Positions 3,572 to 9,944 of a DNA stretch of 12,601 nucleotides are shown one piece after another; position 1 is the first letter of the stretch; each line of letters starts with the position of its first letter. This DNA is from Deltaproteobacteria bacterium RBG_13_61_14 (lineage in GTDB: Bacteria > RBG-13-61-14). The translations under genes and the position numbers were made by a program. The stretch is taken from NCBI GenBank assembly GCA_001797815.1, contig MGQK01000007.1, positions 38,651-51,251 of the forward strand, given 5' to 3'. Under the pieces are notes generated by a model. The model had not been told where the DNA came from, did not search any database, and saw nothing but the letters and a program-made list of their open reading frames with translations.

Positions 3572-4702
3572 ATGTCGGACCCAGGAACCGCGGGCTGGAA
3601 AACCCTGGCTTGGACCACGGTCCTGCTCATCGCCGCCGCCTCGGCCGGGCCGGCCGACGTCAGGATTTTCCAGGGCCATCAGAACGGCCGGGTGGAGGGC
3701 TTTGAGCAAACCGACCTGAACATGTTCCAGGCCCACCCGATGGAGTCGTTTTTCTACTCCGAGTCCTGGAATCACGTTCTCTGGTTCGAAAAGGAGGGCA
3801 TCGTCCTCCTCGTCAACTTCCAACTCCACAACCTGGGAGTCAACCGGGGCAACCTCAACGTGATCGCGATCATTTCCGATCCGTCGGGCAAGGAAAATTT
3901 TGAACTGAACTATTTTCAGCCTTCCCAGTTCCAGATCGCCGAGCAGGATTTCGGAATCAGCGCCGGGGGGCACTCTATCCGGCTGGAGGACGGGCAATAT
4001 CATCTCGTCATCCACGGCGAGAAAATCCAGGCCGATTTCATTTTCAAGATTCTCGCCCCGAGCTTCCAGATGGGCGACGGCATCCTCTATTTCCTGCGAA
4101 GCGGCGACTTCGGCCGGTACAACGATCCGATCCCTTGGGCGGAGGTGAGCGGGACCCTGTCCTATGGAGGCCAGGCCCGGCCACTTCGGGGCTGGGTCAC
4201 CATGAGCCACGACTGGCAGGTCCTTCCGCCATCCCGGATGGTGAACCGGGGCAAGGCCTTCTGGCTGTATTCGGACCAGGCGGTCATCCTGGGCTCCGTG
4301 GTTTCCTGGGCGGAGTTGGGGGACGCCTGGGTGAAAGCGCTGATGGTGGCCGGGCGCGGCCGGATTTTGTTTTCTTCCCACGACTTTCGGTTAGAGGATC
4401 TGGACCCCAAGCCGGTTCCGGGGGGCGGCCCTCCCTGCCCCTCGCGCTATCGGGTGGAAGCGGTGCACGGGGAGGACTGGCTCCGGGGCGAGATCAAGGT
4501 CCGGCGCATTCAGCAAAAGGCGGAGTTGATGACCTACCTTCCGGGTTTCCTGAGAAAGCTAGCGGAAATGTTTTTCCGGGAGACCTGGGCCTACCTTTTC
4601 TTGGCTGAATTCAGGATCGAATTGCACGTGGAAGGGACCACCCGGGTGCTCCAGGGCACCGGGCTCGGGAACTTCATGGAATCTGCCGCCCCGCACCGTT
4701 AG
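3572..4702 (+). CDS. Exported protein, possible CrtC/AttH (lipocalin-like) fold
   Basis: This encodes 376 residues. The N-terminus is a likely signal peptide (hydrophobic LAWTTVLLIAAASA, cleavage after ASA at residue 25). The mature chain is beta-rich and bipartite: residues about 40-165 (FFYSESWNHVLWF, GIVLLVNFQLHN), then SGTLSYGGQARPLRGWVTM followed by S-H213-D214-W215. A G-x(2-3)-H/D-x-W turn after a short beta hairpin recalls the Y-x-DH-x-WG segment of CrtC (hydroxyneurosporene hydratase) and AttH/Svf1-like proteins. I therefore propose that fold, with moderate certainty about fold and none about substrate. GGGAGG lies 9 nt before the ATG, and the ATG is 1 nt after the regulator's stop, so translation is probably coupled. 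A secreted protein among otherwise cytoplasmic enzymes may sense or bind a lipid or sugar, but that is speculation. Confidence 0.75.
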   Translation: MSDPGTAGWKTLAWTTVLLIAAASAGPADVRIFQGHQNGRVEGFEQTDLNMFQAHPMESFFYSESWNHVLWFEKEGIVLLVNFQLHNLGVNRGNLNVIAIISDPSGKENFELNYFQPSQFQIAEQDFGISAGGHSIRLEDGQYHLVIHGEKIQADFIFKILAPSFQMGDGILYFLRSGDFGRYNDPIPWAEVSGTLSYGGQARPLRGWVTMSHDWQVLPPSRMVNRGKAFWLYSDQAVILGSVVSWAELGDAWVKALMVAGRGRILFSSHDFRLEDLDPKPVPGGGPPCPSRYRVEAVHGEDWLRGEIKVRRIQQKAELMTYLPGFLRKLAEMFFRETWAYLFLAEFRIELHVEGTTRVLQGTGLGNFMESAAPHR

Positions 4703-4761: not shown

Positions 4762-5916
4762 ATGGATTTTTGGAGAGCGGTGCTCAAGATGAAGGCGCCG
4801 GGCGAGCGCCGGCCGGACTTCGAGCGGTTCCGGAGGGCGATCACCACCGGCGAGCCGGGGCCGGTGACGGTGGGCGACATTTTTGCAGACTTCGAAACCG
4901 TAAGCCATTTCCTCCGCGAGCCGGTGATTGACTGGGCCGCTTTGGCCGAGGCCCCGGATATTCACATATCTTTTCGGGATCTGTGGTGGGGTTATAAATA
5001 CGTGGGCCAGATCATCCGCTTTTGCTCCCTCACCGGCTGGGACTATGCCTGGTCCTACAGCATCCTCCCGTTTAAGGGTTTCGCTTTCCAGATCGTGAAT
5101 AACACGTCCTCTGAAGTCCAGGACGGCAAAAGAGGCTGGCTCAACGACAACCGCGGGCCGATCATGAGCTGGGACGACTTCGAGCGATACCCCTGGCCCA
5201 AGAATATCAAAGCGATTAATGCCATGTCCCGGGTGATGGCCAAGCGGGTGCCCGAGGGGATGAAAGTGATGGTCATTCCGGGCGGGGTGTTCGAGTGGAC
5301 CACCTGGCTGATGGGGCTGGTGCCGTTTTCCTACGCCCTGGGGGACCAGCCCGACCTGGTGGACGCGGTGATGGATAAGGTCACGGGCCTGATCGGCGAG
5401 GTGGTCAAAGATATTATGACCGAGCCTAACGTCGGCGGCGTCTTCATGGGCGACGACCTGGGATTTTTCTCCGGCACCTTTGTCTCGCCCTCGGTGCTGC
5501 GCGAGAAGTTCCTGCCCCGCACCAAGCAGATCGTGGACCTCACCCATAAGGCGGGCGGGGTGTTCGTGCTTCACTCCTGCGGCAACATGTACGCGGTCAT
5601 GGATGATATCGTGGCCATGGGGGTGGACGCCAAGCACAGTTACGAGGACAAGATCCTGCCGGTAGAGCAGGCGCACGCGAAGTGGGGCGATCAGATCGGG
5701 ATTATCGGCGGTGTTGACATGGACATCATGGCCAAGGGCGGTGAGCATGAGGTGCGGCGACGAACCAGGGAGATATTAGATGCCTGTGCCAGCAAGGGAC
5801 GATACGTGCTGGGGACCGGCAACTCGGTGGCAAACTATATCCCGCTGCGAAACTACCTGGCCATGATCGAGGAGGGCCGGAAGTGGAATAAGGAAAAATT
5901 CGGGAGGGAGTATTGA
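4762..5916 (+). CDS. UROD-superfamily protein 2 (methyltransferase-like paralogue)
   Basis: This encodes 384 residues, paralogous to the protein at 1675. It shares GDDLGF (230-235), HSCGN (271-275), KHSYEDKILPVEQ, IIGGVDMDIMAKGGE, GTGNSV (351-356) and a C-terminal NYLAMIEEGRKWN. The fold expected is the UROD TIM barrel. The H-x-C pair of the zinc methyltransferases is present, but the third-ligand position is Asn354 and no Cys lies nearby, unlike the paralogue. True UroD arginines at the N-terminus are absent, so this is not a haem enzyme. Relatives act as methyl-corrinoid or small-molecule methyltransferases, but no corrinoid-binding partner is visible here. AGGAG and GAGGGA precede the ATG. 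The 59-nt gap after the exported protein gene is compatible with one operon. Confidence 0.85.
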   Translation: MDFWRAVLKMKAPGERRPDFERFRRAITTGEPGPVTVGDIFADFETVSHFLREPVIDWAALAEAPDIHISFRDLWWGYKYVGQIIRFCSLTGWDYAWSYSILPFKGFAFQIVNNTSSEVQDGKRGWLNDNRGPIMSWDDFERYPWPKNIKAINAMSRVMAKRVPEGMKVMVIPGGVFEWTTWLMGLVPFSYALGDQPDLVDAVMDKVTGLIGEVVKDIMTEPNVGGVFMGDDLGFFSGTFVSPSVLREKFLPRTKQIVDLTHKAGGVFVLHSCGNMYAVMDDIVAMGVDAKHSYEDKILPVEQAHAKWGDQIGIIGGVDMDIMAKGGEHEVRRRTREILDACASKGRYVLGTGNSVANYIPLRNYLAMIEEGRKWNKEKFGREY

Positions 5917-7267: not shown

Positions 7268-7309
7268 ATGATTTTTAGTGGAGCCGGCAGCAGTGGATAC
7301 ACCGAGTAG
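7268..7309 (+). other. Possible 13-codon leader ORF overlapping the GH94-like start
   Basis: An ATG at 7268 with GGAGA 5 nt upstream opens a 13-codon frame (MIFSGAGSSGYTE, then TAG) that overlaps the start of the GH94-like gene in another frame. It has a better placed ribosome site than the GTG at 7278. It might couple or dampen initiation at the downstream GTG, mark a small frameshift at the true start, or be chance. Confidence 0.2.
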
Positions 7310-9944
7310 CAGATTTGGATACTGGTCCGAAGACGAATATGGACTTCCCGTCTATAACTACACCATGGATCAGTGCAACGATCCTGCCGCGCTATACCCC
7401 ACCTCACGAGGGATGGCCAACGAGCACTGGCACCTGCTGGGCAACGACCGGATTGTCGCGCTGGCCATGAACCACGGAAACGTAGTGATTTATTCAGGAG
7501 AGCGGGGCGCAAAGTGGTACAACTATTACCAACCCCGAAAAAGAAGGCTAAGCGGCGGCTACGGTTTCCTCAAGGACGGGGAGACCGTGCTCAGCACCTG
7601 GTATGAGCAACGACCTCCCGGTTCGGAATTCAAGAGGATTTTCGGCGCCGGATATTACACCAAGAGCCTCGAAACTGCCGATTTGAAAATCGAGCAGACC
7701 GTCCTGGCGCCCTTTGGAGATGATCCCTGCCTGGTCTCGCGAGTTACGATCGAAAACCTTTCGGACCGCGGCCGCGACCTCGAATGGTTCGAGTTCTGGG
7801 ACGTGAACATGCTTCAGTTCACGATGGATGAGGTCAGCGGGGAATCGGGCCGGACCAGGAGTTCTCTCCAATTCATAAGCAAGGTAATGATCCTGCTCAA
7901 TCGCCTGGCCGCAAAGGCGGACCATCCCACCTTTCTCTCCAGGGTGGCAGCGAAAATGCTGGAAGGCGGAGCGAGCAAGAACCTGAAGGGTTTCCTACTC
8001 GATACCGAGCACAGGGGCGATGCGATCTTGGCCCGGATCTATCACCCCTCTCCGCCGGTAGCGAAGAACGAGATAGCGAAGGTTGATTATTACCCCGAGC
8101 CCATGTTCCTCGTCTCCCTCGACGGGCCGATCAGCGGGTTCGAGACCCGCCGGGCGGTCTTCTTCGACCGGAAAGGCGACCCTCGCCTGCGCACGGAAGG
8201 GGGACTCATCGAGGAAGCCAGAGCCAACCAGGCCAATGCCTGCCTGGTGATAAAACAGAGCATCAGGCTCGAACCGCGACAGGCCAAGACCCTGACTTTC
8301 CTCGCGGGGTATGGAGACGCAACGACGCTCGAAGCTCTCCAGGCCAAGTATCGCCGCCTGGATCCGGTCCGGGAGAGTCTCTCGGCCTGGTCCCAGGCCC
8401 TGCCCCGCGTATCTGTCCTTAATGAATGGGTTTCCCGGGAGATGCGCTGGAACGCCTACTACCTGAAAGCCCTGGCTACGTACGACGAATACTTCAATGC
8501 GTGCATCATCTCGCAAAGCTGTTCTTACCAGTATGTCCTGGGCATGAACATCGCGGCCCGCGATCCCTTGCAGCATATGCTGCCCATGATCTACCTCCAC
8601 CCGCCGCTGGCCAAAGAGGTGTTGCGATACACGCTCAGCGAGATGGACCAAAGGGGGTTCATCCCCTATGGCATCAAGGGCGTGGGCCGGCGCACCGCGG
8701 GGGCCACCCCCTTCCCCTCGGACACCAACCTCTACCTCATGCTGGCGGCGACCGAGTATGTGCAGGCCACCAGGGACTTCGCTTTCCTCGAAGAGGAGCT
8801 GCCTTTTTACCCGCGGGACCGGGGCGAGAGCGGCACGGTGCTGGAACACCTGAGGCGCGGATGGGAGCACCTTTTCCGCGACGTGGGCATCGGCGAGCAC
8901 GGGTTGCTCAAGCTCCGGAACTCCGACTGGAACGATGGCTTTCTGGTGGGCCTGCAGACGGGAGAACCGGGCTTAGACCTGGCCCTGGTCGAGGAAAAGG
9001 GAGAGTCGGTGCTCAACACCGCGTTGGCTACTTACGTCCTGCCTTACTTCGCGGGGATGCTGGAGCGGGCCGGAGAGACTGGATGGGCCGAGGAGGTCCG
9101 CGATCAGGCGGACAAGCTGCGGGAGGCCCTGCTCAAACAATGGAACGGCCGGTGGTTCAATCGCGCCGGCCTGGGCGACGGCCGGATGGTCGGCCAGGAT
9201 CACCTCTACCTTGACCTTCAGCCCTGGGCCATCCTCGGCGCGAACCTGGAACCAGAAATGGAGCGAGCCTTGACCGAGACCCTGTGGACCGAGCTTTCCG
9301 CCCAGTCTCCCCTTGGCGCGATCAGCCTCTGGCCCCTGCCCGAGCATTTACAGCTCATGTCAGGCGGGGGCGCGTGGGCCGGCGTCTGGTATTCTCTGAA
9401 CGCGCCGCTGATCTGGGCCTATGCCAAGGTCAATCCCCCATACGCGGTGGAACAGTTCGAGCGGCTCACCTTCCACCGCCACGCCGAAGCCTATCCGGAA
9501 ACCTGGATCGGCATGTGGAGCGGACCCGACGCCTACAACGGCCCGACCGCGAAAAGGCCGGGCGAGACCTGGGACCTGTTCCCTTACTTCGGGTGGATGA
9601 GCGACTTTCCGGTCATGTGCAGCCATGCCCACGCTTGCCCGTGGTTCGCCCTGCTCAAGCTCGCGGGCATTCAGCCGGCCGCCGACGGATACGTGATCGC
9701 TCCGCTCCTGGGGCTCGGGGACTTCAAAATCGAGACGGAGCTGATTCATCTCTACCGGAAAGGCAACGCGCTTGGAGGAAGCCTCCGACCTCTCGGAGAC
9801 GGTGACGTCTGGTTCCGAGTGAGGAGTGAAGGCAATCAGGTCGAGGTCGGCGGCAGGAGAGTGACTTTCCAACGAGAGGGCGAGTTTATCGTTTTTCCGG
9901 TTCACGCCCAGGCGATGGAACCCCTGGACTGGAAGATCGACTGA
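7293..9944 (+). CDS. GH94-related (GT36-type) phosphorylase-like enzyme
   Basis: This encodes 883 residues, no signal peptide. The N-terminal beta-sandwich shows the GT36 layout: GYWSEDEYGLPVYNYT, LLGNDRIVALAMNHGNVVIY (about 48-67), a GAGYYTKSLETADLKIEQT strand and VTIENLSDRGRDLEW. The catalytic (alpha/alpha)6 region has NIAARDPLQHMLP (about 419-431), PSDTNLYLMLAATEYV, SDWNDGFLVG (544-553) and EEKGESVLNTALATYVL (about 567-583). These match the R-D-Q, S-D-D, D-W-N-D-G and G-E-S-V blocks of GH94, whose general acid is an Asp of the DWND motif. GH94 enzymes cleave beta-disaccharides with phosphate. The phosphate-loop region, normally W-x-T-G-T-A, here reads PVMCSHAHACPWF (about 773-785), so phosphorolysis is doubtful. 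GTG 7293 has TGGAG 9 nt upstream; an in-frame GTG at 7278 is an alternative. Likely co-transcribed with the GH172 gene before it. Confidence 0.83.
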   Translation: MDTPSSRFGYWSEDEYGLPVYNYTMDQCNDPAALYPTSRGMANEHWHLLGNDRIVALAMNHGNVVIYSGERGAKWYNYYQPRKRRLSGGYGFLKDGETVLSTWYEQRPPGSEFKRIFGAGYYTKSLETADLKIEQTVLAPFGDDPCLVSRVTIENLSDRGRDLEWFEFWDVNMLQFTMDEVSGESGRTRSSLQFISKVMILLNRLAAKADHPTFLSRVAAKMLEGGASKNLKGFLLDTEHRGDAILARIYHPSPPVAKNEIAKVDYYPEPMFLVSLDGPISGFETRRAVFFDRKGDPRLRTEGGLIEEARANQANACLVIKQSIRLEPRQAKTLTFLAGYGDATTLEALQAKYRRLDPVRESLSAWSQALPRVSVLNEWVSREMRWNAYYLKALATYDEYFNACIISQSCSYQYVLGMNIAARDPLQHMLPMIYLHPPLAKEVLRYTLSEMDQRGFIPYGIKGVGRRTAGATPFPSDTNLYLMLAATEYVQATRDFAFLEEELPFYPRDRGESGTVLEHLRRGWEHLFRDVGIGEHGLLKLRNSDWNDGFLVGLQTGEPGLDLALVEEKGESVLNTALATYVLPYFAGMLERAGETGWAEEVRDQADKLREALLKQWNGRWFNRAGLGDGRMVGQDHLYLDLQPWAILGANLEPEMERALTETLWTELSAQSPLGAISLWPLPEHLQLMSGGGAWAGVWYSLNAPLIWAYAKVNPPYAVEQFERLTFHRHAEAYPETWIGMWSGPDAYNGPTAKRPGETWDLFPYFGWMSDFPVMCSHAHACPWFALLKLAGIQPAADGYVIAPLLGLGDFKIETELIHLYRKGNALGGSLRPLGDGDVWFRVRSEGNQVEVGGRRVTFQREGEFIVFPVHAQAMEPLDWKID

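Follow-up and report, generated by a model that had tools for sequence, protein, structure and literature searches.

A gene in the window, by which we mean the whole 12,601-nucleotide stretch of DNA analyzed here, encodes a protein that resembles the phosphorylases of glycoside hydrolase family 94 (GH94) in its acid block but not in its phosphate-binding loop. Does it carry out phosphorolysis by other means, or does it catalyze a different reaction on the same scaffold? The first-pass annotation had suggested a hydrolase, a transferase, or a phosphorylase of an unassigned GH94-related family. We find a separate clade that has lost the phosphate site, and of these options we favor the hydrolase. 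Judging from sequence, the gene product is probably (about 70%, by our estimate) an inverting, exo-acting glycoside hydrolase, most likely of β-glycosides, that has the scaffold of a GH94 phosphorylase and is a member of a distinct, apparently uncharacterized clade. Hydrolysis, inversion, the β-linkage, exo action, and Asp751 as the base are what we infer; the observations behind them are given below.

Gene and domain architecture

The gene, previously placed at positions 7293 to 9944, is real and on the plus strand, but its start had been set at the second in-frame GTG, which is codon 6 of the longer frame (Table 1). The product has an N-terminal β-supersandwich, an (α/α)6 barrel, and a C-terminal β domain, in that order. 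Its Pfam matches were to GH94 models only, namely the catalytic domain (E value of 1.9e-25, 90 bits against a cutoff of 27) and the supersandwich domain (E value of 1.5e-14, 55 bits against a cutoff of 23). The GH63 and MGH1 Pfam models and the NCBIfam models searched gave no match. For the SGL group (GH144, GH162, and GH189) there was no Pfam match at an E value of 1, and none of its members was among the fold matches listed. By sequence, the nearest solved relatives are cellobiose and lactose phosphorylases.

Table 1. Features of the window and their positions
Feature	Residues	Window positions	Strand	Remarks
URO-D-family proteins (two)		1660-2799 and 4762-5916		Nearest NCBIfam models: MtaA/CmuA methyltransferases, far below cutoff
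DUF2961 (GH172) protein	367 aa	6152-7255	+	22 bases upstream of GH94-like gene; probable operon partner
GH94-fold protein gene	888 aa	7278-9944	+	Open; first in-frame start is the GTG at 7278
Putative variable N-domain insertion	About 180-276	7815-8105	+	pLDDT below 50 at 235-259
RD pair of GH94 subsite -1	R428-D429	8559-8564	+	Arg in 25/25, Asp in 24/25 family members
DWNDG block	550-554	8925-8939	+	D553, predicted general acid, in 25/25 family members
GESV block	575-578	9000-9011	+	E576 in 23/25, S577 in 24/25 family members
GVWYSLN, in place of GH94 GIFCHNN	702-708	9381-9401	+	Phosphate histidine lost
Family signature WIGMWSGPDAYN	743-754	9504-9539	+	D751, proposed general base, in 25/25 family members
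PVMCSHAHACPWF, replacing the GH94 W-x-[TS]-G-[TS]-A phosphate loop	778-790	9609-9647	+
DUF2961 (GH172) protein	677 aa	10108-12141	+	Downstream of GH94-like gene

Predicted structure and fold matches

An AlphaFold2 model built from 43 sequences had a pLDDT of 89 and a pTM of 0.92 and was poorly predicted only at residues 1 to 7 and 235 to 259; an earlier model from 5 sequences (pLDDT of 50) was discarded. The input alignment of the model contains GH94s, so that the model leans towards the GH94 fold. Among solved structures, the best matches were cellobiose phosphorylases of Cellvibrio gilvus (Z score of 42, 3.5 Å over 737 residues, 21% identity). They were followed by the single-barrel GH63-type mannosylglycerate and glucosylglycerate hydrolases (Z scores of about 29 to 33), alkaline invertases, and others; the match to a GH63 mannosylglycerate hydrolase had a Z score of 33 and 2.7 Å over 338 residues. 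GH116 enzymes, including the exo-β-D-arabinanase ExoMA2, were also among the structural matches, while the solved members of GH149 and GH161 gave a weaker match (GH161) or were absent among the matches listed. Function cannot be read from a common fold alone.

The unusual segment pointed out earlier at about residues 180 to 260 is real, and part of it coincides with the poorly predicted stretch. By its position it is probably the variable N-domain insertion of GH94 and not a foreign domain. In GH94, the helices of this insertion contribute to the pocket (PMC5309861).

A separate clade, widespread yet rare

We compared 25 family members, the window protein included, with 18 GH94 controls recovered in the same searches. 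The 25 form one clade, split from the controls by a single branch with 100/100 support, and this split was present in all 200 bootstrap trees (maximum likelihood, LG+C20+F+G4) with GH94 represented by only these 18 uncharacterized sequences. L044, the most diverged member, is attached beside GH94 through a long branch, and we are unsure of its placement. Identity to the window protein is 24 to 36% within the family and 17 to 21% to GH94. We looked for a placement inside a characterized family and obtained none; GH94 is the nearest, and the clade lies outside the GH94 controls in the tree. In the open-access literature we found no paper describing such a clade. Set apart from GH94 by tree and motifs, it is a candidate new family beside clan GH-Q.

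In the genome samples the family is widespread yet rare. It is carried by all three genomes of the host phylum in the collection, and the window's genome has two copies. The copy in the window branches separately, and the second copy groups with those of the two remaining genomes. Outside the host phylum, a wider sample of 386 genomes held ten more carriers, and searches around three of them gave a few more. In one large phylum, the members are confined to a single family within that phylum (5 of 396 genomes). A Chitinophagaceae genome has three copies, and in a 395-genome sample of its phylum true members were found only in that genome, two other matches being ordinary GH94. Matches on plasmids were, by name, mostly annotated GH94 or related enzymes, with one clear member on a Spirosoma plasmid; the viral contigs scanned held no relative. 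The Spirosoma member (L067:10987-13265) is annotated as two adjacent hypothetical proteins, and its reading frame may be broken.

Both phosphate elements of GH94 are lost

In the GH94 enzyme LpSOGP, phosphate is held by Y922 and S1005, and H924 and S1006 are in the position where other GH94 enzymes have a bound sulfate (PMC5309861). The histidine equivalent to H924 was found in all 18 GH94 controls and in none of the 25 family members. At position 706 the window protein has Ser and no family member has His, so the conserved phosphate histidine of clan GH-Q, as in GH149 and GH161, is absent as well. This change (GIFCH to GVWYS, residues 702 to 706) is additional to those in the first-pass annotation.

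That annotation had instead drawn attention to a nonstandard loop in place of W-x-T-G-T-A, and gap-free anchoring on the conserved Gly797, which follows the last barrel helix, does bring PVMCSHAHACPWF onto the GH94 loop. The motif W-x-[TS]-G-[TS] is present in 18/18 controls and in 0/25 family members, with the anchored register clear in 21. The GH94 loop is mostly [ST]-W-[LY]-[TS]-G-[TS]-A-S-W, its W and G occurring in every control, whereas that of the family is mostly P-V-M-N-x-[NH]-x-H-A (in the 21 of 25 members with the anchoring Gly). A profile-profile alignment gave another register, in which the loop was placed with a 9-residue gap, and the window protein was still without the T/S-G.

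Could the new loop bind phosphate in its own way? The last helix starts at residue 783 in the model, immediately preceded by C781-S782. Position 782, the loop Ser of the window protein, is not conserved in the family, which speaks against His and Ser of this loop occupying phosphate-binding positions; positions 783 and 785 are often His, which points the other way. A phosphorylase with a rebuilt phosphate site, in which the His and Asn of the PVMNxNxH loop replace the histidine and the T-G, would draw on H785, which is His in 21 of the 25 members. Three members have Asp there, however, and together with the variable Ser782 and the evidence on the catalytic pair and export given below, this makes such an enzyme unlikely in our estimation. 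As far as its sequence tells, the window protein agrees with GH94 in the acid and in much of the sugar site but lacks the phosphate-related features of GH94. Because these features are absent, the label of GH94 phosphorylase should not be given to it.

Retained catalytic and sugar-site residues

The DWNDG and G-E-S-V blocks, described earlier as kept, are both in place. LpSOGP holds its sugar through R630, D631, W758, D760, and E917 (PMC5309861), and the role of the RD pair in subsite -1 of GH94 has been described (PMC5309861, PMC6771811). In the alignment of 25 against 18 sequences, the equivalents of R630, W758, and D760 are invariant in the family and in GH94, and that of D631 is nearly so. 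The subsite -1 Glu (E917) is Glu in all 18 controls, Ala in the window protein, and variable in the family. Retention of the acid and of the subsite -1 Arg-Asp would also suit a phosphorylase with a rebuilt site. It is harder to reconcile with a catalytically dead scaffold or a sugar-binding protein: loss of the phosphate site would indeed kill a phosphorylase, but the acid Asp, the Arg of the RD pair, and D751 are invariant despite the low identities to the window protein, and such invariance would not be expected under drift. We regard a dead protein as very improbable.

An Arg-Glu pair at residues 387 and 388 (window positions 8436 to 8441) is invariant in all 25 family members.

The Glu of this pair, E388, is found in none of the GH94 controls. 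We considered this family-specific residue as the general base and set it aside because of its position close to the beginning of the first barrel helix. It could also serve a retaining glycosidase or transglycosylase on a GH94-like scaffold, comparable to the GH116 β-glucosidases and GH189 glucanotransferases on (α/α)6 scaffolds, and the GH116 structural matches with ExoMA2 among them would agree with this. The matches to GH94 and to the GH63-type enzymes are stronger, however, and point to inversion, and the helix limits of the model place E388 probably far from the pocket. A retaining enzyme is thus distinctly unlikely.

Asp751 is a candidate general base

The general base of the inverting hydrolases in GH63, GH78, and GH37 occupies the place taken by sulfate in GH94 (PMC7263609). 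The clade has a signature of its own, W-x-G-x-W-x-x-x-D-x-x-N (also given as W-x-G-x-W-x-G-P-D-x-x-N), which reads WIGMWSGPDAYN in the window protein and in which the D is the invariant D751. We compared a mixed profile, GH94s included, with ten GH63-type proteins, among which was one closely related to the Thermus mannosylglycerate hydrolase of solved structure. The probability was 99%; the Asp of G-M-D-N paired with D553, and the Glu of E-Y-Y-D paired with D751, the latter in a gapped stretch and with the mixed profile only. With a family-only profile, the alignment to GH63-type sequences ended at residue 743, short of the base. We take this Glu and Asp to be the catalytic residues of mannosylglycerate and glucosylglycerate hydrolases, and the PDB titles of D182A and E419A variants agree with this.

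The alignment of the acid and D751 with the hydrolase pair argues against a phosphorylase with a rebuilt site. The D751 column is acidic in the controls too (Asp or Glu in 16/18), and because of this D751 alone does not separate hydrolase from phosphorylase. It is a candidate base and not a discriminating mark; the marks that do discriminate are the lost histidine and the lost loop.

For the inverting hydrolase that we favor, Asp553 of the DWND block would protonate the leaving glycosidic oxygen, as in GH94. There, the attack on the anomeric carbon is made by phosphate near the histidine and the Thr/Ser-Gly loop, both of which are missing in the clade; here, water activated by Asp751 would attack in its place, with Asp751 taking the place and role of the Glu in GH63-type inverting hydrolases.

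Export signals

Sec, lipoprotein, or Tat-type N-termini, recognized by visual inspection of hydropathy, lipobox, and twin-arginine patterns, were seen in about 19 of the 23 members with a readable start and in none of the 18 GH94 controls. Making sugar 1-phosphates is normally a cytoplasmic strategy, and phosphorolysis by an exported enzyme would be unusual; that most relatives look exported counts against a rebuilt phosphate site. No export signal was found in the window protein and its relatives L050 to L052, which would fit a phosphorylase. Lacking an export signal, the window enzyme has a predicted cytoplasmic location, which is compatible with phosphorolysis.

Relation to known families

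GH94, with its cellobiose, chitobiose, and related phosphorylases of clan GH-Q, has the same three-domain fold, DWND acid, RD pair, and GES block as the clade. It differs in having the phosphate histidine, the [TS]-G loop, and a conserved Glu at E917, and the clade stands apart in the tree, mostly carries export signals, and has low identity to GH94 (17 to 21% for the window protein). GH149 and GH161, also of clan GH-Q, share the fold class and acid motif but, unlike the clade, retain the phosphate histidine (PMC6484121, PMC6771811). GH94, GH149, and GH161 are described as phosphorylases with one common mechanism (PMC12102758).

The GH63-type inverting hydrolases (mannosylglycerate and glucosylglycerate hydrolases and YgjK) have the same barrel fold, and in the alignment their acid Asp pairs with D553 and their base Glu with D751. 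They are known to act on α-glycosides, their identity is about 10 to 16%, the window protein does not match their Pfam models, and Asp replaces their base Glu. An analogy is offered by the GH65 hydrolase FjGH65A, in which the phosphate residues are lost and the base Glu616 stands in that place (PMC8626586). There, too, a phosphorylase-type scaffold is used for hydrolysis with a carboxylate base replacing the phosphate residues, but FjGH65A belongs to another family and acts on α-glucosides, and in our case the column of the proposed base is often acidic in GH94 phosphorylases as well.

We tentatively suggest, at somewhat less than even odds, that the clade constitutes a new family of glycoside hydrolases and the first relative of clan GH-Q to hydrolyze. 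It would mark a natural divide between phosphorylases and hydrolases, across which the hydrolases use as their base an acidic residue that most of the phosphorylases retain. If true, a phosphorylase-type scaffold is used naturally as a hydrolase, showing how phosphorolysis and hydrolysis interconvert on it. It would also be a warning against annotating proteins of the clade as phosphorylases and would provide a test pair for engineering in either direction.

Gene neighborhood

The window holds a same-strand series of genes for a URO-D-like protein, a GntR regulator, an unknown protein of 376 aa, a second URO-D-like protein, a DUF2961 protein, the GH94-like protein, and another DUF2961 protein. 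Known members of GH172 (DUF2961) are α-D-arabinofuranosidases and a difructose dianhydride I synthase/hydrolase (PMC10115798, PMC8605356). The window's genome has about eight DUF2961 genes altogether, and in an unrelated genome (G016) the sole DUF2961 gene is directly downstream of the family member. We found no literature linking URO-D, DUF2961, and glycosidases.

Elsewhere, family members have GH92 neighbors at three loci (that at L085 recognized from its sequence only), and GH3, GH31, and a nucleoside hydrolase as further neighbors. At L070, the neighbors of a cytoplasmic member include a GHMP-type sugar kinase and a nucleotidyl transferase; these would fit a free sugar and not a sugar phosphate, which weakly opposes a rebuilt phosphate site. 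Together, the neighbors point to glycan breakdown and to no single substrate. The window enzyme may perhaps work with its two flanking GH172 proteins on an imported oligosaccharide, a weak suggestion.

Other observations were made at these loci. The 376-aa protein (window positions 3572 to 4702) matches no Pfam or NCBIfam model and has a signal-like N-terminal segment. A second cluster in the window's genome (contig C106:64259-68807) has three DUF2961 genes, two of them sized like the window's pair, apparently with no GH94-like gene between them. Two URO-D-like genes and a homocysteine S-methyltransferase gene stand beside the family member at L083. A NAGPA (phosphodiester glycosidase) protein (L070:10852-11976) adjoins the cytoplasmic member and its GHMP kinase neighbor.
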